From Candidatus Aminicenantota bacterium (GTDB lineage Bacteria > Acidobacteriota > Aminicenantia > UBA2199): DNA of 10,604 bases. The notes beneath the pieces were generated by a model. It was not told where the DNA came from and ran no database searches. It saw nothing but the letters and a program-made list of their open reading frames with translations. Every line of letters starts with the position of its first letter. Position 1 is the stretch's first letter. This document shows, piece by piece, positions 1 to 10,604 of this stretch. The translations under genes and the position numbers were made by a program. Location: positions 8,371,561 through 8,382,164 of the forward strand of contig CP070627.1 of assembly GCA_020355945.1 (NCBI GenBank). The letters run 5' to 3'.

Positions 1-62
1 TTTGAAAAAACTGCCCCCCCTGGACCCCCCTGCAAAAACTTTTTATTAATCAAAAGCTTTTG
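1..62 (+). repeat. Intergenic palindromic repeat, copy A1 (left part off window)
   Basis: Begins inside the hairpin loop (TTTGAAAAAACTG), continues through the poly-C arm (CCCCCCCTGG), then ACCCCCC, GCAAAAACTTTTTATTAA and the palindrome AAAAGCTTTT (52-61). The same order of blocks is found at 5697-5755 (opposite strand) and 7352-7415. It faces copy A2 tail to tail. Confidence 0.85.
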
Positions 63-78
63 TGGATGTTTCACGGGT

Positions 79-112
79 CAGGGGGGCGGTTTTCTCGAAA
101 AGAGCCCCCCTG
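79..112 (-). repeat. Intergenic palindromic repeat, copy A2
   Basis: Perfect 9-bp arms CAGGGGGGC (79-87) and GCCCCCCTG (104-112) with a T/A-rich centre containing TTTTC and GAAAA. The 34 bases are identical to the reverse complement of 5608-5641. It lies 6 bases downstream of the acsB-acsD stop codon. It has a T-run only on its plus-strand side (114-119), so it does not look like an intrinsic terminator for the leftward cluster, though it could act as one for rightward transcription or protect the 3' end of the leftward mRNA. Confidence 0.85.
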
Positions 113-118
113 GTTTTT

Positions 119-3100
119 TCATAATAGTTTAAATATCGTTTCTTTTAATTTCATTGCCGCATCCGGGTGATACATGATGAATAGATCGGCACCTGCATAA
201 AGAAGACTAACCGCAGTGGATAACTCCCACATGGCCGCTCGTTTCCCTAAATCACCCCAGGCAGGGAAATCCGCTTCCGAAGCTTTATATTCCTTCACTT
301 TGGAACATTCTTGACCTGGTGCAACAATCATCGGCCCGGCCAGCATTTTATCTCCGTTCAAACCAGTCTGACGAATCCGCTCCATCACCGAATAAGTGTA
401 CTCAATCCCATACCCTGACGCACTGGTCAGGGGGTCCATGACAATCTTTTCAGTTTTAATATCCATATTGGTAAGCAAAATATTCATCTGCTTGGCAATG
501 TTTACATCAATCGGACTCTGGGCTACGATGCAATGATGGTAAGCCATGGCAGCTCCGGCAATAGTGCGGTAATTATCCTGCTCCACCCAGTTGAGAAGAA
601 GATTCTCACCGGCACATGCCTGGGCCACTGCTTTTAATACCTCATTGTTGGAATCAAAATGACTGTGCCCGGTCACAATTAAAGGAACATCAACAGCAGC
701 CAGTACATCTTTTACCAGTTGGACAGCCTGACCGGGACTTCGGTTCCCTTTTTCAGGGTGAGTCCCTTCTAAACGTACACTGATAAGGTCTACACCATAT
801 TTTTCAACACATACCTGTGCCATTTTTGCCGGATTTTCCAGCAGGTCACCATAAATATCCTTAAGAACAGGGGGAAACTTTTCACTGATCACATCAAAAA
901 CTTCCATGGCTAGCAAAGGCCGGTGCGGCATATCTCCTTCCCAAAAATGAAAAGGCATACAGGCTTCGCCGCCAATGGTGTAAGTTTTTCCCCGGGTACC
1001 ACCTTCATCCTTAGTGGCACCCAATTGAACCGTCCAGACCGGTACCTCACAGGTCTCCTTTTTGATCTTAAAAGCAGTTACGCCGCTCAAACGCTCTTCT
1101 GCCGTAGGGCCTTTGGATTCAATTATTACCGATCCCGGTTTTGTTTCCGCATCAGTGGGAACAGTTGATGTGGATTCCGGCTCCCGGACAGATGCCTCTT
1201 TACCCAGGAATTTACTACTAAGGGTGTTAATAATTTTATTGACTACCTGCCGGGTAATCTCCGTATTAAGTTGTTCACTTACTTCCCTGGTTACCTGTTC
1301 TTTGATCTGGTTTAATATTCCCTCTGTTAGTATTGCTTGCTGGGATACCGCCTTAGTCCCCGGCTGGTCCGCATTACCAGGCAGTGATGTGGCTGGCGCA
1401 GTTGGTGCTTTTTCTTCCTCTGCTTCTGTGGGGCCGGTCTCTTCTATATCCGGGGCAGCTTGTGAATAAATCGCCATATCTTCCATTTCCAGGGCAGGGT
1501 GTTGGCATTTTTCCATGAATTCACGAACCCCATGAGCATCAGCAGCGATTGTTTCATCAGCGATTTTTTCAATGAGGTCCGGGACGCCTTGCTCTGCAAA
1601 ACGTTTCTTCAGATCATCAGCCAGCAGTTCCTTCAACTCTTTGGTCATCCAGACCAGGCGTTTATGCCCACCTTCTGCATAGAGAAACTTTTTTGAAGAG
1701 AGAAAGACTTTACCACATCCCATGAATCCCGGTGTCTGCTGCCCGCCACCAACCTCACCGGCTAATGTAGAAAAAGTCATTCCCACGGGGGTATCTCCCT
1801 GGAATTCCCTATTGACCGCCATTACGCCATTGCACTCCGGTACATAAGCACAGATGACTTCAAAACACCCACAACTGGTCATGGGAAGATACATAATGGA
1901 ATAAGCAGAAAAACTGTCGACGGACTTATGGCTGTTGATATAAACATATTCGTCAATTCCTTTCCAGATACCTTTAACCGGATCGAGACAATCACCTTTT
2001 TTTACCGGCTGGTTGGGCCCGGTTTCGTCGATTTCATAAGCGGCTTTACCATCCAGCCAATTATAGGCGCCGCACAATCCCAACCGCTCCGGTGTGATAA
2101 TACAGACATGATTGGGGGCAAAGGATTGACACAACAAACAAGAATAAAAGGTATCCACGGATTCGTCGGTCATGGATTCCAGCCGGCGGTTGCGTTCATC
2201 ATAAACCTTACGGGCAATGGCCACCCGTTTTTCCACTTCCTGGCCGTCGGTTATCATTGTTACTTTTACTTTGTCTACAATAGCGGGATAGTCGGAAAGG
2301 AATTTGGCATGAATGATTTCGCCGTAATGTTTCAGCCGCAGTCCCCTGTCAAAACCGCTTTTGGAAACCCGGGTCCAGGCTATATCCCGCTGCCCCATGT
2401 GCCAGATTCCTTCCGCACCGTTTACCAGGTGGTGAATCTGGCGTTCAAGAATCGGTTCGAAATCCGTCTGCATTTTGCGTCCCGCCACTTCAACCCAGAT
2501 TCCCAACGGCAGCGCCATACCCTCTTCAACCGTATCAATATCAGGACCAATAACTTCTATATCTCCATCATTAATCTTATCCAACTCAACAGAGGTAACA
2601 AATTCAAATGCGGTTGTCCGGTTACCGCCAAATTCCACATGCATATCGTTCTTGCGGATACGTTCTCCTTCAAAGGCGGGGCCATAAGGAACCGGGATAG
2701 GGACTTTGGTTATCCTTACTTTACAGCCGCGTACCTCCAATGCCTTTTCCACCATGGACTCATATGGCACATTGGAGACAACATGTTCATAGGTACATAC
2801 ACCAGTGGGCAGAATCTGGGGAATACCCGTGTCGGCAATCACAGGGAAGCCATAATTAATCGCACCGGCAGCAACGGCATATTTATCCGGTGTCACCTCA
2901 CCTAAAGCCAATACAAAGGCAAACACACGCTCTTTATTGTACTTTAGATTCTTCTTAAAATCACCGGGTTTAACCCCTCCAAACGAGAGGGCAACACGAT
3001 TGGCAAATCCAAGTGCATAAATCAAGGCAGATACATCCTTGCCATAAGGGACCAGGCGGGTTTCCCAGCCTAGCTGTACACCTTCTTCCGCCAACTGCTC

Positions 3101-3649
3101 GGCAAACTGTTTGCCTTCCGTAGGCCCGGCCATAAAAACATAGAGGTTTTTCTCTTGCAGTTCCCGGGCGATTTTAACGGCAATTTCATTATCAGGCGCA
3201 GCCCCGGTAACAGCGGCAAACCCCGGTGCCGTACCATCAACAAATTCAATACCTCGTTCACGCATAATCGTGTCATTGGCTGCACCCAGCCAGATACCTT
3301 CTACCGGGTCCGGACCAATGACATATTTGCAAGCCTCAATAATTTCACAGGCAAAAAGTGCTGCTATGCCTGCATCAAGGGTATTGCCCAAATACGGCAG
3401 CCAAACATTTTCAGCCGGCCTTTGGGGCAGCAGTTCTTTGGCTCGTTTTAGAATATCTCTTAATTCTCCCAGGGTCTGTACCTTTTTACCGGTAAACGAA
3501 TAAATCACAGGCAAGAAATATGCGGTATTGGGAAATGCTGCCGGGTTTGCTTCACCTTTGGTTTTGATCGCTTGATCGAGCTTAGCCTCAGCCGCGGCCA
3601 CCCACGCCACTGCACCATCAATTGCGCTGCTGCATATGATTTTAGACAT
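119..3649 (-). CDS. acsB-acsD: Fused acetyl-CoA synthase (AcsB) - corrinoid Fe-S protein small subunit (AcsD)
   Basis: A 1176-residue cytoplasmic protein joining two Wood-Ljungdahl proteins. Residues 1-730 match acetyl-CoA synthase, which condenses CO, a corrinoid-bound methyl group and CoA. All A-cluster ligands are visible: C504, C507, C516 and C526 (spacing x2, x8, x9) hold the Fe4S4 cluster, F510 matches the gating Phe, and C593-G-C595 holds the distal nickel. The numbering is two below Moorella AcsB (506/509/518/528/595/597). Residues 731-850 are an acidic, Pro/Thr-rich linker with a long helix. Residues 851-1176 match AcsD, the TIM-barrel small subunit of the corrinoid iron-sulfur protein, at full length for that family (about 320). 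AcsB and AcsD are separate genes in the well-studied acetogens. The start has an AGGAG box 8 bases upstream and overlaps the acsA stop by 8 bases, suggesting translational coupling. No frameshift or stop interrupts the junction. AcsC, the partner of AcsD, is absent from the window. Confidence 0.95.
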   Translation of the reverse strand: MSKIICSSAIDGAVAWVAAAEAKLDQAIKTKGEANPAAFPNTAYFLPVIYSFTGKKVQTLGELRDILKRAKELLPQRPAENVWLPYLGNTLDAGIAALFACEIIEACKYVIGPDPVEGIWLGAANDTIMRERGIEFVDGTAPGFAAVTGAAPDNEIAVKIARELQEKNLYVFMAGPTEGKQFAEQLAEEGVQLGWETRLVPYGKDVSALIYALGFANRVALSFGGVKPGDFKKNLKYNKERVFAFVLALGEVTPDKYAVAAGAINYGFPVIADTGIPQILPTGVCTYEHVVSNVPYESMVEKALEVRGCKVRITKVPIPVPYGPAFEGERIRKNDMHVEFGGNRTTAFEFVTSVELDKINDGDIEVIGPDIDTVEEGMALPLGIWVEVAGRKMQTDFEPILERQIHHLVNGAEGIWHMGQRDIAWTRVSKSGFDRGLRLKHYGEIIHAKFLSDYPAIVDKVKVTMITDGQEVEKRVAIARKVYDERNRRLESMTDESVDTFYSCLLCQSFAPNHVCIITPERLGLCGAYNWLDGKAAYEIDETGPNQPVKKGDCLDPVKGIWKGIDEYVYINSHKSVDSFSAYSIMYLPMTSCGCFEVICAYVPECNGVMAVNREFQGDTPVGMTFSTLAGEVGGGQQTPGFMGCGKVFLSSKKFLYAEGGHKRLVWMTKELKELLADDLKKRFAEQGVPDLIEKIADETIAADAHGVREFMEKCQHPALEMEDMAIYSQAAPDIEETGPTEAEEEKAPTAPATSLPGNADQPGTKAVSQQAILTEGILNQIKEQVTREVSEQLNTEITRQVVNKIINTLSSKFLGKEASVREPESTSTVPTDAETKPGSVIIESKGPTAEERLSGVTAFKIKKETCEVPVWTVQLGATKDEGGTRGKTYTIGGEACMPFHFWEGDMPHRPLLAMEVFDVISEKFPPVLKDIYGDLLENPAKMAQVCVEKYGVDLISVRLEGTHPEKGNRSPGQAVQLVKDVLAAVDVPLIVTGHSHFDSNNEVLKAVAQACAGENLLLNWVEQDNYRTIAGAAMAYHHCIVAQSPIDVNIAKQMNILLTNMDIKTEKIVMDPLTSASGYGIEYTYSVMERIRQTGLNGDKMLAGPMIVAPGQECSKVKEYKASEADFPAWGDLGKRAAMWELSTAVSLLYAGADLFIMYHPDAAMKLKETIFKLL

Positions 3650-5591
3650 CGAGTTCTCTCCTATCTTTCATATCCATTAACTTGCGTTCCATTTTCTTAT
3701 TTATGCCCAGCTTCTCCCTCCGGTTATAAAGAATCTCCATGATTGTTTCCACTGCCGCGTTAGGGTCTTCACATGTATAAAACGATCCCCCGAATAACTC
3801 TTTTGCTTCTTTTTCCAGGAAATCGGTGACTTCAGGTGAACCTTGAATACGAAACGGGTGTCCCAGGATAACATCTATACCGGAAGCGACAAAATAACAG
3901 GCGATTGCCACGGCTTTTTCACTCATCCATTCCGGGGCCACGCCCACAGCAGGTATTTGGGAAAGATCATCTCCCAATCCACCTTCCATTACAATCTCTG
4001 TCCCGGCTTCCAGGATGCGGGAATTATCAACGCAGCTTCCCATATGCAGGACCGGTGGAATACCTACAGCCTCGCATACTTCCCGTAAACCATGACCTGC
4101 CTGTTCCAGGGCAGTTTCCGGTGTAAGCATGCCCTGTTTGGCAGAAGCAATCGCGGCACAGCCGGTCTTCAGCACCAGGACATTGCGTTTGATGAGTTCG
4201 CCAGTCAGTGTATTAATATAATTATCCACTTTTGACCTGGCATTATTACATCCGACAATTCCCACTACACCGAAAATGCGGTTCTGCATAATCGCATCGT
4301 TTAATGGTCGAAATGATGCCCGAAAGGTTCCACCCAGCATGTATTTGATAGCTTCCACACTGAAACCGGCCACCAGGGGCTTCTTTTCAGCAGGAATGAT
4401 TACCTTATCCGGGTCACGCTGTTTGAAATTATCAACCGCTCGTCTGATTATTTTTTTAGCAGATTCTAACGCATTGTCTTCATCCAGCGTCAAATGTGTG
4501 GCTCCGATTGTCTTAGCAATATCATTGGTAGAGACGATTTCCGTATGATAGGCACTGGCCACTTCCGGCAGACCCGGCATACAGCACTGCACATCAATAA
4601 CCATCATTTCTACTGCCCCGGTAACAATAGCCAGTTCCTGCTGGAGGAAATTACCGGCTACAGGTATTCCGTGGCGCATTAAGATTTCATTGGCAGTGCA
4701 GCAGATACCGGCCAGGGTTATTCCTTCGGCACCTGCTTTTTTGGCATATTCAATAATATCAGGTGCTTGTGAGGCCACGGCCAGCATTTCGGAAAGCGCT
4801 GGCTCATGTCCATGAACCACTATATTGACTGTTTTTTCTCCCAGCACACCAAGGTTGGCATTGCTGCGTATTGGCTGAGGGGAACCAAAAAGAATATCCG
4901 AAACCATCGTAGCGATGCGTGACCCACCCCAGCCATCAGACAGGGATGTACGAAAAGCCTGTAAGAGGAGATTCCTGTAGTCATGATCGACACCCATGTG
5001 GGTTCGATGCATGGATTCCACTATAATACGGTCAATTCCCAGGGGCATTGCATAGTTGTTATGCCAGGTATTCTGCTGTTTAAGCGGTGCCAGGGTAGTG
5101 GTTTTAAGTTTTTCTTCCTGGGCTGTAAATTCTTTTAAAAAGAGGTTAGCTAAATCAAGGGCCACTTCCTCTTTGCTGCGGTCAGCTTCTTCAATTCCAT
5201 AAAGACGTGCCGTATAGCGCAGTGCATGTTCATCTTTTACCTGGTAACCACTGCCATTTCCCTGGGCAATCTTTTTTAAACGTAATACCAGGTGTCGTCC
5301 ATGGTCTGAGTGGGCTGCCGTACCGCCTACGACTTCACGTAAAAAATTCCGTGCCACGATCGTAGCGGCATCAGCGCCGCATACACCATACGGTGATTTA
5401 GGGGTAATTCGACAGGGCCCCATATAACAAATACGACAGCAAACTCCTTCTTTACCAAATTTACATTGAACAGACTGAGCATCTATGCGAGTGAAACAGG
5501 TATCAATACATTCTTCTTGTGCTTTTTTCAGCACTTCAACAGAAGCTGCATCAGTCACACACTCTTCTATATTTCTCGCTTGTTTAGCCAT
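3642..5591 (-). CDS. acsA: Ni-Fe-S carbon monoxide dehydrogenase, ACS-associated
   Basis: A 649-residue anaerobic CODH (CooS/AcsA family, usually 630-675 residues) that interconverts CO2 and CO and here should feed CO to the acetyl-CoA synthase encoded next. Ligands are visible in order: C43 and C51 for the intersubunit D-cluster; C52, C55, C60 and C71 for the B-cluster; H262 (in HGHEP), C298, C336, C448, C478 and C520 (in HMGSCVDNSR) for the Ni-Fe-S C-cluster. C297 beside C298 matches the extra Cys seen in other CODHs. The catalytic Lys is K559 (MSEKA), and H94/H97/H100 fit the proton-relay His set. The gap before the fourth B-cluster Cys is 10 residues, against 13 in Moorella AcsA as I recall it. 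An AAAGGAG box sits 7 bases before the ATG. The stop overlaps the acsB-acsD start by 8 bases, so the two are probably made together. The name acsA rather than cooS is chosen from context. Confidence 0.96.
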   Translation of the reverse strand: MAKQARNIEECVTDAASVEVLKKAQEECIDTCFTRIDAQSVQCKFGKEGVCCRICYMGPCRITPKSPYGVCGADAATIVARNFLREVVGGTAAHSDHGRHLVLRLKKIAQGNGSGYQVKDEHALRYTARLYGIEEADRSKEEVALDLANLFLKEFTAQEEKLKTTTLAPLKQQNTWHNNYAMPLGIDRIIVESMHRTHMGVDHDYRNLLLQAFRTSLSDGWGGSRIATMVSDILFGSPQPIRSNANLGVLGEKTVNIVVHGHEPALSEMLAVASQAPDIIEYAKKAGAEGITLAGICCTANEILMRHGIPVAGNFLQQELAIVTGAVEMMVIDVQCCMPGLPEVASAYHTEIVSTNDIAKTIGATHLTLDEDNALESAKKIIRRAVDNFKQRDPDKVIIPAEKKPLVAGFSVEAIKYMLGGTFRASFRPLNDAIMQNRIFGVVGIVGCNNARSKVDNYINTLTGELIKRNVLVLKTGCAAIASAKQGMLTPETALEQAGHGLREVCEAVGIPPVLHMGSCVDNSRILEAGTEIVMEGGLGDDLSQIPAVGVAPEWMSEKAVAIACYFVASGIDVILGHPFRIQGSPEVTDFLEKEAKELFGGSFYTCEDPNAAVETIMEILYNRREKLGINKKMERKLMDMKDRRELDV

Positions 5592-5606: not shown

Positions 5607-5660
5607 CCAGGGGGGCTCTTTTCGAGAAAACCGCCCCCCTGGACCCCCCGAAAAAGCTTT
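5607..5660 (+). repeat. Intergenic palindromic repeat, copy B1
   Basis: Perfect 10-bp arms CCAGGGGGGC (5607-5616) and GCCCCCCTGG (5633-5642), then ACCCCCC and AAAAGCTTTT (5651-5660). It sits between cooC and acsA, 15 bases upstream of the acsA start codon and just outside its ribosome binding site. It is the exact inverse of copy A2. Confidence 0.88.
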
Positions 5661-5692: not shown

Positions 5693-6508
5693 CTATAAAA
5701 AGTTTTTGCGGGGGGGTCCAGGGGGGGCAGTTTTTTCAAAAAGCGCCCCCCCTGGTAATTTTTCAATAAAAGCATCCAAACGTCCTATCACAGGGTTGCC
5801 TGGTTCCAGGTTTAAAAGGGGCAGGCCTTTTTCCGAAAGAGCTGCCAATTGGTCATTATTTGGCAGGCCAACGACAAAGTCTGCTTTGATTCGTTCTTTT
5901 AGGTCTTTAACTTGTGAAGGCAGTTCTTCATTACGAAGGCGATTAACAATAATTGCCAGTTGATGGTATTTCGTCTCCATTTCCAGTGCCAGGGAATGAA
6001 GGCGGCTGACGGTTTCTAGCCCACGTTGGGAAGGGTCTGTCACCATAACCAATAGGTCTACTTTTTGAACGATCCGCCTTGAGAGGTTTTCCAGGCCGGC
6101 TTCATTATCCAGGACTATATAGGGATAGTGTTTTGAAATCTCAGTCAACACGGATTTTAAGACATTGTTGGCATAGCAGTAGCATCCTGGTCCTTCGGGC
6201 CGGCCCATGGCAATCAAATCAAAGTCTTTTGCTTCCACAAGGCATTGGGCGATCTTCATTTCTAACAACTGTTGTTTAGAAATCCCGCTGCTCATGCCTT
6301 TTCCGGCTATTTCCCGGGCTTCTTCACGCACGCCGCCGACGGTTTTTTCAACCGAAACCCCCAGGGCAGCATCAAGACATGTATTAGGGTCGGCATCCAC
6401 TGCCAAAACAGGCTTACGGTCTTTTTTGATCAATCGATTAATTAAAAGGGCAGCAATAGTGGTTTTTCCTACGCCGCCTTTCCCGGTTATGGCAATTAAG
6501 TAACTCAT
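5693..6508 (-). CDS. cooC: CooC-type nickel-insertion ATPase with repeat-derived tail
   Basis: A 271-residue MinD/Mrp-superfamily P-loop ATPase of the CooC group, whose studied members load nickel into the CODH C-cluster in an ATP-dependent way as dimers. The deviant Walker A, GKGGVGKTT, is at residues 9-17. DADPN follows at 38-42, and the signature CxC (C109-Y-C111 within GPGCYCYANN) marks the metal site at the dimer interface. The gene lies directly upstream of acsA, so the CODH is the likely client. Residues 252-271 (PGGALFEKT onward to RKNFL) are encoded exactly by an intergenic repeat (5755 down to the stop at 5693), so the ancestral protein probably ended near residue 251. No Shine-Dalgarno box is visible: the bases before the ATG are the AAAAACTTTTTATT end of another repeat copy. 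Nickel specificity is a family inference. Confidence 0.9.
   Translation of the reverse strand: MSYLIAITGKGGVGKTTIAALLINRLIKKDRKPVLAVDADPNTCLDAALGVSVEKTVGGVREEAREIAGKGMSSGISKQQLLEMKIAQCLVEAKDFDLIAMGRPEGPGCYCYANNVLKSVLTEISKHYPYIVLDNEAGLENLSRRIVQKVDLLVMVTDPSQRGLETVSRLHSLALEMETKYHQLAIIVNRLRNEELPSQVKDLKERIKADFVVGLPNNDQLAALSEKGLPLLNLEPGNPVIGRLDAFIEKLPGGALFEKTAPPGPPRKNFL
5697..5755 (-). repeat. Intergenic palindromic repeat, copy B2, overlapping the cooC 3' end
   Basis: Perfect 11-bp arms CCAGGGGGGGC (5718-5728) and GCCCCCCCTGG (5745-5755), plus the GGGGGGTCC and AAAAAGTTTTTGC tail. It faces copy B1 across a short spacer holding GCCCGAAGGGC (5683-5693). Its bases from 5755 leftward are translated as the last 20 residues of CooC. 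Confidence 0.88.
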
Positions 6509-6569
6509 AATAAAAAGTTTTTGGAGGTGTCGGAACCTTTTTTCAAAAAGGTTCTGACCCGCCGGAGGC
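6509..6569 (-). repeat. Diverged palindromic repeat, copy C, between acsF and cooC
   Basis: Read leftward it has GCCTCCGGCGG (6569-6559), a hairpin of 14-bp arms with one G-U pair (6529-6542 and 6545-6558, core GAACCTTTTT/AAAAAGGTTC), then CCTCC and AAAAACTTTTTATT ending directly at the cooC ATG. It fills all but the first two bases of the acsF-cooC gap. The poly-G/C arms of the other copies are replaced here by GAACC/GGTTC. It is followed by no T-run of terminator type on the minus strand beyond the short TTTTT. Confidence 0.75.
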
Positions 6570-7337
6570 TTATTTAAGCTTTTCTAAAATTTCTTCGAAT
6601 ATGGTGACCATTTCTTTACTTAATCCATCCAGCACAGACAGTCCGTTTCTGTCATTTCGGCGGATTTCTTCGGAATAAGGAATAATACCGAGTAAACCAT
6701 GACCCGGAAATGCCTCCCGGATAAAACGCTCATCGTTGGGACCATCTATTTTATTAGCGACGAATCGGATATTTTTCAAGCCGATTTCATGGGACATGCG
6801 GATAATCCTGTAGGCGGAATCAATGGAGCGCTGGCCTGGTTCGATGACTACGATCATGCAGTCAACACCCCGGGCGGTAGCGCGTCCCAGGTGCTCTATA
6901 CCCGCTTCCATATCCATCACCAATGCTTCGTTTTTATATAATATTAAATCGGTTACCAGGGCACGGATTAATACATTTTCCGGGCAAGCACAGCCGCTGC
7001 CTCCTTGCTCTACAGCACCTAATACCAGCAGCGCCACACCTTCATGTTCTGTGGCATAATTGTCCGCGATATCAGACACTTCCGGGTTAAGCTTGAATAT
7101 TTGTCCGTACTGTTTGACTTTGGCACCGGTTCGCTCTTCAATCAATGCCACTTGCTGTGAAATAGGAATAATTTCTTTTTGTTTTTCTTCAGAGAAACCC
7201 AGGGCCGCTGCCAGGTTCGCATCCGGGTCCGCATCTACTGCCAACACCTTCAGCCCCTGTCGAGCCATTAAAAGCACCAAAGCCGCTGCTAAAGTAGATT
7301 TTCCTACTCCACCTTTGCCTGATATTGCAATTTTCAT
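6570..7337 (-). CDS. acsF: AcsF/CooC-family nickel-insertion ATPase for ACS/CODH
   Basis: A 255-residue MinD-like ATPase of the CooC/AcsF group. Walker A GKGGVGKST is at residues 7-15, DADPDAN at 36-42 and the CxC pair C116-A-C118 in GSGCACPEN, which differs from the GCYCYANN form of the neighbouring CooC. AcsF of Moorella inserts nickel into the A-cluster of acetyl-CoA synthase. The presence of two paralogs beside one CODH and one ACS suggests this one serves AcsB, but the split of duties is inference and the symbol is provisional. The start is placed at 7337: MKIAISGKGG is the normal family N-terminus, and GGAGG lies 4 bases upstream. The open frame continues 24 codons further to 7409, but that extension is translated repeat and contains the ribosome binding site, so it is not coding. 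The gene is flanked on both sides by an 11-bp inverted sequence (6559-6569 and 7341-7351) belonging to the repeat family. Confidence 0.85.
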   Translation of the reverse strand: MKIAISGKGGVGKSTLAAALVLLMARQGLKVLAVDADPDANLAAALGFSEEKQKEIIPISQQVALIEERTGAKVKQYGQIFKLNPEVSDIADNYATEHEGVALLVLGAVEQGGSGCACPENVLIRALVTDLILYKNEALVMDMEAGIEHLGRATARGVDCMIVVIEPGQRSIDSAYRIIRMSHEIGLKNIRFVANKIDGPNDERFIREAFPGHGLLGIIPYSEEIRRNDRNGLSVLDGLSKEMVTIFEEILEKLK

Positions 7338-7340
7338 TCT

Positions 7341-7417
7341 GCCTCCGGCGGCCAGGGGGGGCGCTTTTTGAAAAAACTGCCCCCGTGACGCATCTGGCCC
7401 CCCCCGCAAAAACTTTT
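7341..7417 (+). repeat. Palindromic repeat, copy D, interrupted, between the methionine synthase gene and acsF
   Basis: Starts with GCCTCCGGCGG (7341-7351), then CCAGGGGGGGCGC, TTTTTGAAAAAACTGCCCC, a foreign stretch GTGACGCATCT (7385-7395) where other copies have CCCTGGA, then GGCCCCCCCC and GCAAAAACTTTT. On the minus strand its first block supplies the GGAGG box of acsF. Confidence 0.8.
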
Positions 7418-7441: not shown

Positions 7442-8509
7442 TTAAAATCCATATTTTTCACGCATCACCTTTGACAATTTAGCTGTCATTTCAAACACCT
7501 TTTCTGCATCCACCGGGTCCATGGAACCAGTGCCGCAGGAAGGTGTAACAATTGCCTGTTCAACAATGAGTTGTTTATCAACACCTTTAGAAGCCAGGTT
7601 ATCCACCATTTTTTCAAAATGCGCCACCATGGTTTCAACAGTTTGTTCTTGAATCGCTTTTGATGTAGGCACCACACCCCAGGCCAGCATACCGCCGCGC
7701 TCCAAATGGGTTTTTACTGCATCCGCATACATGGCAATGGTCTCACCATATCCAAAGGCATCAAAATTAACAATATCTACCCCTGCATCAATAAGAATAC
7801 TCCATTCCGTGTTACCACAGCAGTGAATACCGGCAATCCCATTGTCGGCATGAATCGCATCGATCATCTCAGCCAGGTGCGCCACCACATCTTCGCGCTT
7901 CACAGATATATAGGTGGAACTGCCAAAAGCCGAAAGAATCGGTTCGTCCACAAAACAGATCACTCTTTCAGCAAAAGGTTGAAATTTTTGTATCTGCCAA
8001 CGGCATTTCATAGCCAGGGCTTTGATCACTACATCACGAAATTCTTCGTTATAATAAATCGCACGCTTGTTTTCATCTACAATAGTCAAAGCAAAACTGC
8101 ACGGACCTGTGGTTTGTACCTTCACAAACGGCAGTTTACCCCCCAGGGACTGCAAACGCTTTTCCATGGCATAAATCCCTTTGGAGAAATCCTGGCTAAT
8201 CGCCACAGCAGAACAATCCCCAGTGCCCTCATCCGGGTCCATGGCCATCATATAAGCTTCATAAAATTCAGCAAAAGCTTCGGAATAATCCCCGGAAGTA
8301 TCAAAATACATCCGCCCTTTCTCACGATCGATCACGATACAGGGCATGCCTTCCGAATATTGAATTTCCATTTGCTCATTCAAACCCAGTTTGGGTAACT
8401 GCGGCCAGAAAGGCGCTTCAGGCAATTTTGCCAGCGACACGTCTACCGCATGTTCCACGTCTTCAAACGGCATACTACCAATCCCGGCAGCAAGAAATTT
8501 AGGTTTCAT
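7442..8509 (-). CDS. Core methionine synthase (MetE catalytic-domain type), MesB-like
   Basis: A 355-residue soluble protein resembling the C-terminal catalytic domain of cobalamin-independent methionine synthase (UROD/MetE-like TIM barrel), with no folate-binding N-terminal domain. The zinc ligands can be matched: H229-x-C231 (IHCCGN) to MetE His641/Cys643, D250 (NFDAFG) to the Glu665 position, and C325 (TPSCGTG) to Cys726. FVDEP near residue 187 matches the conserved DEP motif. Short MetE-core proteins of the MesB family occur in anaerobes with the Wood-Ljungdahl pathway, and are proposed to take methyl from the corrinoid iron-sulfur protein to make methionine from homocysteine. Position at the head of the CODH/ACS cluster fits that role. 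Another thiol or corrinoid methyltransferase of the same superfamily remains possible. The start at 8509 is chosen over an ATG 15 bases upstream (8524) because GGAGGGG lies 6 bases before it and nothing similar precedes the other. Confidence 0.7.
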   Translation of the reverse strand: MKPKFLAAGIGSMPFEDVEHAVDVSLAKLPEAPFWPQLPKLGLNEQMEIQYSEGMPCIVIDREKGRMYFDTSGDYSEAFAEFYEAYMMAMDPDEGTGDCSAVAISQDFSKGIYAMEKRLQSLGGKLPFVKVQTTGPCSFALTIVDENKRAIYYNEEFRDVVIKALAMKCRWQIQKFQPFAERVICFVDEPILSAFGSSTYISVKREDVVAHLAEMIDAIHADNGIAGIHCCGNTEWSILIDAGVDIVNFDAFGYGETIAMYADAVKTHLERGGMLAWGVVPTSKAIQEQTVETMVAHFEKMVDNLASKGVDKQLIVEQAIVTPSCGTGSMDPVDAEKVFEMTAKLSKVMREKYGF

Positions 8510-8721
8510 GATGTTCCCCTCCATTGCAAAAGTAAGCTTCCGCCATTAAGCACCCGGTAGAACCGGTAATGCTTTTGACTGATGGAAAAAGTTGTTTGCT
8601 TTTCCATTGTTATATTTTAACAATTCCACGATTCCGCCGCTCCGGTTTTTCTTTTAGAAACGTCCATAGATTCACCCTTTTCGCGGATTCGCGGACCGCT
8701 TCAAAGTTAAGGTTAAAGCAA
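8510..8721 (-). other. Long 5' leader with inverted repeats
   Basis: No gene is credible here. Besides the 19-bp palindrome listed separately, the leader holds TGGAAAA/TTTTCCA arms around a 10-base loop (8583-8606), a nested AAGCA/TGCTT and CCGG/CCGG hairpin (8548-8574) and a tandem CCGCGAA pair (read leftward, 8692-8678). I see no conserved core of cobalamin, SAM-I or THF riboswitches and no T-box motif. No poly-T terminator is present within it. Confidence 0.45.
8606..8624. promoter_or_regulatory. 19-bp perfect palindrome, candidate operator
   Basis: ATTGTTATATTTTAACAAT has perfect 7-bp arms around 5 bases. The half-sites TTGTTA/TAACAA are those of clostridial Rex (redox) operators, but the spacing is one base shorter than the usual Rex site, so the regulator is uncertain. 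It lies about 100 bases inside the predicted transcript. Confidence 0.4.
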
Positions 8722-8778: not shown

Positions 8779-8808
8779 TTGACAGTACCCAAATTCTTAT
8801 TATATAAT
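8779..8808 (+). promoter_or_regulatory. Near-consensus vegetative promoter for the 148-residue protein
   Basis: TTGACA (8779-8784) and TATAAT (8803-8808), both perfect, with an 18-base spacer. RNA would start near 8815, about 33 bases before the ATG at 8848. The promoter is back to back with the leftward one, with 23 bases between the two -35 boxes. Confidence 0.75.
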
Positions 8809-8847
8809 TTTATCTCAAAATTAGATCAAAAAAGGTTATTAAAAAAA

Positions 8848-9294
8848 ATGGAGGTTTACAATAAAGTTAAAAGTATTTATGGCGGAATAACCATATGGGG
8901 TTCCAGGAAATATGCGGCTTATGATATTGGCAGCGGTACTCAATGGGATTCGGACAGGGGCACAAAGGTTTCCGTATATTTTGGTGGGCCGGATGGATAC
9001 GATACTGACACCTTACACCTGCGGATTTATGCTCCACCATCTGATTATTTTGATGGAAATGGTGGTTGGGGGCATTATGTGATCGCTTCTGCTCATTTTG
9101 ATTTTAATCCGCCCTGGGATACCGTATGTGGTTACAGTGAAGATTGCGAGCATATGGCCCTTCAAATTGCTGCCAGTAAAGGATATACAGTCTATTATGA
9201 CTGGGCTTATATCGGCAATCCCGAAAGCTTACGAAATGAGGGTAACCCCTGGTGGCAAAGTGATGGGTATGTAAGCCTGGTTTACGTTCCTTAG
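8848..9294 (+). CDS. Hypothetical protein, 148 residues, Trp/Tyr/Gly-rich
   Basis: I do not recognise this protein. It reads MEVYNKVKSIYGG at the start, is rich in Tyr, Trp, Gly and Asp, and alternates polar and aromatic residues in short stretches as beta-strand proteins do. It ends with SDGYVSLVYVP. There are two Cys (CGYSEDC) and several acidic loops (such as GGPDGYDTDT). No signal peptide, membrane helix or familiar catalytic motif is visible. The open frame extends upstream to a TTG at 8779, but that codon is part of the -35 box of a strong promoter, so the ATG at 8848 is preferred. Its ribosome binding site is weak (AAAGG 12 bases upstream), while a GGAGG begins inside the start codon itself with no usable start after it. 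It is transcribed away from the acs cluster. It could be the remnant of a longer secreted protein that lost its signal sequence. Confidence 0.6.
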   Translation: MEVYNKVKSIYGGITIWGSRKYAAYDIGSGTQWDSDRGTKVSVYFGGPDGYDTDTLHLRIYAPPSDYFDGNGGWGHYVIASAHFDFNPPWDTVCGYSEDCEHMALQIAASKGYTVYYDWAYIGNPESLRNEGNPWWQSDGYVSLVYVP

Positions 9295-9362: not shown

Positions 9363-10604
9363 ATGACCAAAGAGCAAGCAATTGAAGAACTAAAAGAACT
9401 CATCAACCTATTTGAGTACAACATCAAACAATACAAAGGGAAAAATTACGACGAAGCAAAAGCTCGTGTGGATTTTATCGATAAATTCTTTGATCTGCTG
9501 GATTGGGATATTTACAATAAACAAGGATACTCGGAAAAATACCGCGATGTTGTCCGTGAAGACCGCGTCACCATCAAAGGAAAAGTAAAAGCACCGGATT
9601 ACAGTTTTAGAGTCGGCGGCATACGTAAGTTTTTTGTTGAAGCCAAAAAACCCGCCGTCGATATCCAACATGAAATCGAACCCGCTTTTCAATTAAGACG
9701 ATATGCCTATACTGCAAAACTTGATCTCTCCATATTGACTGACTTTGAAGAGTTTGCTGTCTATGATACTCGCTTCCCACCTAATAAAAACGATAAAGCA
9801 TCTTCTTGCAGACTCTATTACTGCAAGTACGAAGAATACATCAGGAACTTTGATTTTCTTTTCAATACTTTTTCAAAGGAGGCCATTTTAAAAGGAAATT
9901 TTGACGAATATATCAAGACTACTAAAATACAAAAAGGCACCTCTCCCGTTGATAAAGAATTTCTAAAATTGATAGAAAAATGGCGGGAAAACCTGGCAAA
10001 AAATATTGCGCTGCGGAATAAAAATTTATCTATTTACGAATTAAACTATGTAGTCCAGGTGATCATTGACCGGATCATCTTTTTACGTATTGGCGAAGAC
10101 CGGCAAATGGAAGATTACGGACGCATAAAAGAACTCACTGAAAACAAAAAAACCATTTACCCGGAACTGGTGAAATTATTTTTACAGGCTGATGTAAAAT
10201 ACAATTCCGGTCTCTTTGATTTCAAAAAGGACCAGGTTACCCCACATCTTAAAATCGACGATAAAATCCTTAAAGATATGATTGCCCATCTTTATTACCC
10301 GGATTCGCCTTATGAGTTTTCTGTACTTGATGTAGAAATCCTGGGTAATATTTACGAGCAATTCCTGGGAAAGACCATTCGTTTGACCCCTGCTCACCAG
10401 GCAAAAGTAGAAGACAAACCCGAAGTAAAAAAAGCCGGAGGCGTATACTATACTCCTAAATACATCGTGGATTATATCGTTGAGCATACTGGAGGAGAAA
10501 AGATTAAAGACAAAACACCCGGGGAAATCTCTAAATTGAAAATTCTTGACCCTGCTTGCGGCAGTGGTTCGTTTTTATTAGGGGCGTATCAACTGCTGAT
10601 GGAT
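9363..10604 (+). CDS. Type IIG-like restriction-modification enzyme (N-terminal 414 residues, cut by window end)
   Basis: An open frame of 414 codons with no stop, running off the right edge. An N-terminal PD-(D/E)xK nuclease domain is visible with P78-D79 and E93-A-K95 (FFVEAKKP), preceded by the FIDKFFDLLDWDI segment typical of HsdR_N/Eco57I-type enzymes. A helical region follows. The beginning of an N6-adenine methylase shows motif X-like GGVYYTPKYIVDYIV (359-373) and SAM-binding motif I DPACGSGSF (396-404). This order is that of single-chain enzymes that both methylate and cut DNA and carry a C-terminal recognition domain; such proteins are usually about 1000 residues, so more than half is missing. 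The ATG at 9363 is the only in-frame start (TAA lies three codons upstream), there is no ribosome binding site, and a promoter -10 box ends 5 bases before it, so the mRNA may be leaderless. Target sequence cannot be read from the visible part. Confidence 0.88.
   Translation, partial: MTKEQAIEELKELINLFEYNIKQYKGKNYDEAKARVDFIDKFFDLLDWDIYNKQGYSEKYRDVVREDRVTIKGKVKAPDYSFRVGGIRKFFVEAKKPAVDIQHEIEPAFQLRRYAYTAKLDLSILTDFEEFAVYDTRFPPNKNDKASSCRLYYCKYEEYIRNFDFLFNTFSKEAILKGNFDEYIKTTKIQKGTSPVDKEFLKLIEKWRENLAKNIALRNKNLSIYELNYVVQVIIDRIIFLRIGEDRQMEDYGRIKELTENKKTIYPELVKLFLQADVKYNSGLFDFKKDQVTPHLKIDDKILKDMIAHLYYPDSPYEFSVLDVEILGNIYEQFLGKTIRLTPAHQAKVEDKPEVKKAGGVYYTPKYIVDYIVEHTGGEKIKDKTPGEISKLKILDPACGSGSFLLGAYQLLMD

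Follow-up and report, generated by a model that had tools for sequence, protein, structure and literature searches.

Architecture of the AcsB-AcsD fusion

The 10,604-nucleotide stretch analyzed here (the window; contig CP070627.1 of assembly GCA_020355945.1, Candidatus Aminicenantota bacterium) contains, on its minus strand, a single open frame (119-3649, from ATG to TGA) for a protein of 1176 amino acids (aa) in which acetyl-CoA synthase (ACS, AcsB) is fused to AcsD, the small subunit of the corrinoid iron-sulfur protein (CFeSP). The AcsB part (residues 1-725, window 1475-3649) is followed by a linker (residues 726-847, window 1109-1474; a preliminary description made from the sequence alone had placed the junction close by, at about 1100-1459) and by the AcsD part (residues 848-1176, window 119-1108 with the stop codon). 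Three Pfam domains, CODH_A_N (21-110), CdhC (318-472) and ACS_CODH_B_C (483-725), were detected in the AcsB part, and CdhD (878-1111) in the AcsD part. The protein also matches the NCBIfam AcsB models NF040764 (1053 bits, cut-off 800, residues 10-725) and NF007078 (1035 bits, cut-off 809, residues 1-725) and the AcsD model NF003376 (378 bits, cut-off 280, residues 859-1175); the AcsD part stays under the cut-off of NF040759 (261 versus 430 bits) and of NF003375, NF003377, NF003378 and TIGR00381. The six cysteines that, by reference to Moorella AcsB, we take to be the A-cluster ligands (C504, C507, C516, C526, C593 and C595) are invariant in all 193 aligned fused sequences, as is G594 between the last two; the full set of six had also been read from the window in the preliminary description.

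The same architecture recurs far beyond the window. All four Pfam domains and a length of 1148-1211 aa were found in 120 of 120 database proteins, the window's own included (the best 120 of 7998 scored matches), and AcsB and AcsD share one frame, in some cases trimmed by a contig end, in 77 of 80 genome loci (L001-L080, the best 80 of 379). Of the three exceptions, L066 has its AcsD part interrupted by a frame break, and the frames of L075 and L080 run into the contig end. Together with the Pfam and NCBIfam matches, these results confirm the single chain reported in the preliminary description: the fusion is natural and both of its parts are complete.

The fusion is a known enzyme in a new form, not a new kind of enzyme. 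It shares the three-domain AcsB, the A-cluster cysteines and the AcsD fold with the bacterial systems that combine carbon monoxide dehydrogenase (CODH)/ACS (AcsA/AcsB) with a stand-alone CFeSP (AcsC/AcsD), such as those of Moorella, Carboxydothermus and Clostridium autoethanogenum; in Moorella-type systems, however, AcsB and AcsD are separate chains. The predicted AcsD part closely matches CFeSP small subunits, which are TIM barrels (TM-score 0.94 for 4djd_D and 0.95 for 2h9a_B), and the predicted ACS part matches full-length ACS chains with TM-scores of up to 0.73, all by target length. No earlier description of an AcsB-AcsD fusion was found in the open-licence PMC literature, which is weak evidence, and no solved structure with both domains on one chain was found among the 24 distinct sequences retrieved by sequence search. 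Few steps of this carbon pathway, one of the oldest, have been seen as little as the methyl transfer between ACS and the corrinoid protein, which is hard to trap when the partners are separate; a natural single chain offers structural biology a ready-made tethered ACS-CFeSP pair.

When 28 genomes with the fusion were searched with the AcsD part alone, each yielded a single match, always inside the fused frame. As no second AcsD was found, the CFeSP must be built with the fused domain, presumably paired with the separately encoded AcsC. The 1:1 tether of ACS and CFeSP envisaged in the preliminary description is supported as plausible.

The linker (median 111 residues, 10th-90th percentile 98-127) consists of variable Pro/Ala/Glu-rich arms, predicted to be disordered (medians 42 and 26 residues), on either side of a conserved amphipathic helix (window 1208-1324). 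The AlphaFold2 model of the fusion (mean pLDDT 74.6, pTM 0.40) places the helix at residues 776-814 between the disordered arms. Information per column, in 40-residue blocks across the 193 sequences, is 3.1-4.0 bits in AcsB and 1.2-1.7 bits in the linker, within which conservation rises again at V803 (88%), I806 (92%), I807 (87%), L810 (96%), L815 (91%) and G816 (87%). We infer that the helix acts as a docking or self-association element. Elsewhere in the loci, no frame carries a counterpart of the helix motif (lowest E among non-fused frames 0.64), in a search that recovered 74 of 75 fused frames, most of them part of the model itself, at E 1e-3 or better.

The parallel with the archaeal acetyl-CoA decarbonylase/synthase (ACDS) drawn in the preliminary description stands as a functional one, the Methanosarcina complex (CdhA-E), like the fusion, holding ACS and CFeSP together. 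It fails as homology: comparison of the archaeal ACS tail with the bacterial linker gave an hhalign probability of 0.1% and a best hmmsearch E of 0.93, and the tail was rejected as the source of the linker helix. According to the excerpts of PMC11474084, CFeSP of acetogens stands alone, and archaeal ACS, in which the A1 domain and a covalent link to CFeSP are both absent, is stably complexed with CFeSP and has a C-terminal extension that was not seen in the structure and is thought to be important for the swing between CODH and CFeSP. In 115 of the 120 listed archaeal ACS sequences (P0121-P0240), selected by length, we observed that this extension is a floppy acidic, Pro- and Met-containing arm; the element at its end, around the consensus VKIILKNAKVSIDKVII, is strongly conserved and may represent the docking piece that the published cryo-EM map lacks.

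Distribution and origin of the fusion

The fusion is widespread, yet it is the minority form. The 77 fused loci include 17 named phyla; 13 of the rows, KSB1, Aminicenantes and SAR324 among them, are without a phylum name. In five phylum draws totaling 1108 genomes (198, 218, 299, 194 and 199; the phylum names are those of the loci that led to the draw centers), 306 genomes had an AcsB or AcsD match. Among the matches listed, we counted by hand 15 fused genomes, 5 of them draw centers: nine in Spirochaetota, three in Verrucomicrobiota and one each in Desulfobacterota, Bacillota_A and Planctomycetota, the last three being the centers of their own draws. The Bacillota draw, in which the center is the only fused genome among 95 with a match, bears out the earlier statement that the usual acetogens have separate AcsB and AcsD. 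The Spirochaetota draw, where two of the nine fusions (G106 and G197) are split or trimmed by contig ends, also includes 14 genomes with unfused AcsB and three with AcsD alone. In the cultured termite-gut treponemes covered by the excerpts of PMC3082573, ACS and the small and large subunits are separate genes, so that the fusion may be missing from some gut treponemes.

The database search and AcsB tree proposed in the preliminary description yielded single-chain relatives that form one fused group. In the AcsB-domain tree (181 rows), this group, supported by an SH-aLRT of 99, comprises 78 fused rows together with L066, L075 and L080; in the AcsD-domain tree (145 rows), 80 fused rows and L066 likewise form one group (SH-aLRT 99). 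Both are quick, midpoint-rooted trees in which a few branches, including that of L072, are long. Because a single fused group appears in both trees, the fusion seems to have arisen once. None of the 81 tips in the fused clade shows a confirmed re-splitting at the junction.

Horizontal spread probably followed this single origin, as the clade mixes phyla. One set of 18 rows (SH-aLRT 97), placed apart from other Spirochaetota, holds 16 rows that we take, from their isolate codes, to be insect-gut bacteria: Treponema, Synergistaceae, several Bacillota and two Actinomycetota. This composition fits transfer inside one habitat, and some of the metagenome-assembled genomes (MAGs) are possibly misbinned. 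The window's fusion belongs to a 7-row set (SH-aLRT 97) with Aminicenantes, one Acidobacteriota and one Ignavibacteriota row.

Several candidate routes to the fusion, or vehicles for it, were rejected. Simple loss of a stop codon between neighbors is not indicated by the unfused pairs read by eye, in none of which AcsD immediately follows AcsB: in some Desulfobacterota loci it is just upstream of AcsB, and in others it is 1.4-6.4 kb downstream. Seven archaeal-type ACS of Desulfobacterota, inspected as possible intermediates, all stop shortly past the ACS core. Among 72,556 plasmid records, one matches, and its best place is to AcsB only.

The MesB-like companion and the proposed role of a tethered complex

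In relatives of the window, the operon order is MesB-CooC-CooC-CooS-AcsBD-AcsC-AcsV. The window itself stops 118 bases beyond the stop codon of the fusion; among the 57 loci with more than 2 kb downstream, AcsC is nearby in 48 and AcsV in 44. The other cassette genes in the window are likewise on the minus strand: CooS/AcsA carbon monoxide dehydrogenase (3642-5591; Pfam and NCBIfam), overlapping the fusion by 8 nt; two CooC-like ATPases (second copy 5693-6508, first copy 6570-7409; Pfam); and a MesB-like core methionine synthase (MetE core; 7442-8524), recognized by NCBIfam and by its zinc residues, with no Pfam match above the cut-off. The cassette thus differs from Moorella-type systems: no acsE was found nearby, and a MesB-like gene is present instead, as it is in 39 of the 50 loci whose upstream sequence extends for 6 kb or more.

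This companion suggests a use other than textbook acetogenesis. The residues H234, C236, D255 and C330 are present in all 46 operon copies of the MesB-like gene and match the HxC-D-C arrangement of zinc residues described for MesB in the excerpts of PMC7857596. A close MesB type (at least 475 bits) was detected in each of the 28 fused genomes and in none of the 26 unfused ones, 14 of which have distant homologs (best 300 bits). Across the 198 genomes of the Spirochaetota draw, the type scoring at least 470 bits occurs in exactly the nine fused ones, and ten others have distant homologs of up to 250 bits. Within the sets tested, therefore, the close subtype, as recognized by sequence score, is confined to genomes with fused AcsBD.

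The distribution of AcsE is nearly the reverse. A clear single-domain AcsE (at least 200 bits) was found in 2 of 28 fused versus 24 of 26 unfused genomes (Fisher p 1e-10, ignoring kinship; G878 is counted as positive despite its 529-aa open frame), and a match above the model's own cut-off in 2 of 28 (G013, and G019 in an 806-aa frame) versus 19 of 26. No AcsE-like frame was found in the window or in L001-L080, and the same query does detect AcsE in other loci. Apart from the six fused genomes discussed below, the AcsE model matches only frames of 499-1246 aa in 21 fused genomes and nothing in G015; the three of these frames that were examined are of MetH type. The Pterin_bind matches of about 290 aa were also considered as AcsE, and the three tested are dihydropteroate synthases. 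The preliminary description had the tether raise the local concentration of methyl donor at the A-cluster; delivery of the methyl group into the cluster for acetogenesis is not supported, given the lack of an AcsE-like frame at the loci, the 26 fused genomes without clear single-domain AcsE and the close MesB type in all 28 fused genomes.

A comparable arrangement is the ACS/CFeSP and MesB route of Dehalococcoides mccartyi, in which, as far as the excerpts of PMC7857596 describe it, AcsE is also absent and a MesB-type enzyme is linked to CFeSP. In the same source, CFeSP is predicted to be the methyl donor of MesB, and in this bacterium, which lacks MetF as well as AcsE, the methionine methyl group is reported to derive from the methyl of acetate. 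Our carriers differ in the AcsB-AcsD fusion, in having CooS and in usually retaining a MetF match, D. mccartyi being compared by its description only.

On balance, we favor as somewhat probable a tethered ACS-CFeSP that mostly passes methyl groups of acetyl-CoA to methionine over one that serves classical acetogenesis. Because the cassette combines ACS, CFeSP, its reactivator AcsV, a CODH against CO and MesB, CFeSP appears to be kept for a two-way exchange with ACS. Each ACS would permanently bear its own CFeSP (the AcsD part with AcsC) on a leash of about 110 residues; the methyl group would move between the A-cluster and the corrinoid inside one complex, and the leash would also let the CFeSP head reach AcsV, for reactivation, and MesB. 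In most carriers, the net flow would run from acetyl-CoA to CH3-CFeSP and CO; CooS would oxidize the CO, and the MesB-like enzyme would pass the methyl group to homocysteine, as has been proposed for Dehalococcoides, methionine being the usual outlet. In the few carriers that retain AcsE, such as G013, the same complex could run towards acetyl-CoA. In the AlphaFold3 model included in the excerpts of PMC12289521, the N-terminal domain of ACS is in contact with the beta subunit of CoFeSP, which argues that the tethered partners do meet; the same text argues that ACS has to open for the encounter with CFeSP, and a long leash is compatible with such opening.

A bolder version, in which a mobile cassette uses the leash helix to assemble an ACDS-like complex that feeds the acetyl-CoA methyl group to a dedicated MesB subtype, free of folate and AcsE, in many phyla, is possible, albeit doubtful.

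A number of observations weigh against delivery of methyl groups to methionine through a docked complex. MetF-family matches occur in 24 of 28 fused genomes (25 of 26 unfused), Fhs in 20 of 28 (one fragment and one split; 24 of 26 unfused), and multidomain frames fitting MetH in most fused genomes, the three frames examined being of MetH type. The folate route to methionine thus seems, from gene content, to be present in most carriers, so that MesB would often be redundant. A single-domain AcsE-like frame of any score (up to 360 aa) is found in six of the 28 (G013, G018, G014, G021, G003 and G006), and G013 encodes a clear AcsE, MetF and Fhs on one contig, that is, a methyl branch. The job of AcsE might be done by a MetH-type pterin domain, for which the AcsE model gives scores as high as 259 bits, and two unfused genomes (G159 and G066) lack AcsE as well. 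As for the helix, it has diverged in a few members (L072, L053, L067 and L014), its pLDDT is just 40-53 per ten-residue block (confidence is also low in portions of the middle and C-terminal domains of ACS), and its packing is not confident at the pTM given above. Most of the genomes are MAGs whose completeness is not stated; our own selection accounts for 24 of the 28 fused genomes and for all 26 unfused ones, picked from the draws; and because the fusion is one clade, the gene associations are not independent.

Alternatively, the fusion could serve CO2 fixation or acetogenesis by keeping more methyl donor near the A-cluster; AcsE would then have been replaced, for example by the pterin domain of MetH type, or overlooked because genomes are incomplete. 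The occurrence of Fhs and MetF and the gene set of G013 favor this explanation, and so does the range of the insect-gut carriers, from Treponema and Synergistaceae to Bacillota and Actinomycetota, acetogenesis being important in that habitat. In a rough ideal-chain estimate with an assumed persistence length, the tether gives an effective concentration of 0.2-1 mM at a separation of 30-80 A. Acetogenesis, however, does not need a MesB-like gene, yet one is present in every fused genome tested, and with AcsE absent from the loci and clear in so few fused genomes, we regard this explanation as rather unlikely.

We find it still less credible that the fusion concerns expression only, so that ACS and AcsD are made in equal amounts and fold together, with the linker passive or the chain cut after translation and CFeSP working as elsewhere. 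Such a role would agree with the long arms of variable length and with the overlap of 8 nt between cooS and the fusion gene, which is kept in 37 of the 61 loci with an adjoining CooS frame and hints at coupled translation; against it stand the 87-96% conserved helix positions inside an otherwise variable linker and a fused clade with no confirmed re-splitting. An artefact of assembly or sequencing, by which a stop was lost or the frame misread between two genes, is practically out of the question: no observation in its favor was found, and it is refuted by the number of independent copies among the listed proteins and loci and at odds with the single group that each domain forms in its tree.

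If the link between the fusion and MesB is true, many uncultured bacteria classed by acsB as CO2 fixers or acetogens may instead draw methyl groups from acetyl-CoA. Surveys of acsB would then have to separate the two uses, for which the fused length or a MesB neighbor would suffice.

Other features of the locus

The CooC-like ATPases (5693-7409), which presumably function in nickel insertion, are paired, rather than single, in many related operons too; perhaps one serves CODH and the other ACS. In several cassettes, AcsV is followed by a DUF3786 protein (PF12654), for example at 16738-17355 of L028. Beyond the MesB-like gene of the window, a 171-aa frame at 8779-9294 has no family match, and a divergent gene on the plus strand (9363-10604), trimmed by the window end, is the start of an N6-adenine methylase of restriction-modification type (HSDR_N and N6_Mtase).

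Four near-palindromic, GC-clamped repeats of the type CCAGGGGGGC...TTTT...GCCCCCCTGG lie between the operon genes or at their ends (window 79-113, 5607-5641, 5711-5755 and 7347-7389). Pairs of them are inverted repeats, 98-100% identical over 33-46 nt, and one pair also covers window positions 1-46. An Rfam scan of the window returned no family match; the repeats look like intergenic elements of the repetitive extragenic palindromic (REP) type, one of which apparently provides the last codons of the second CooC.

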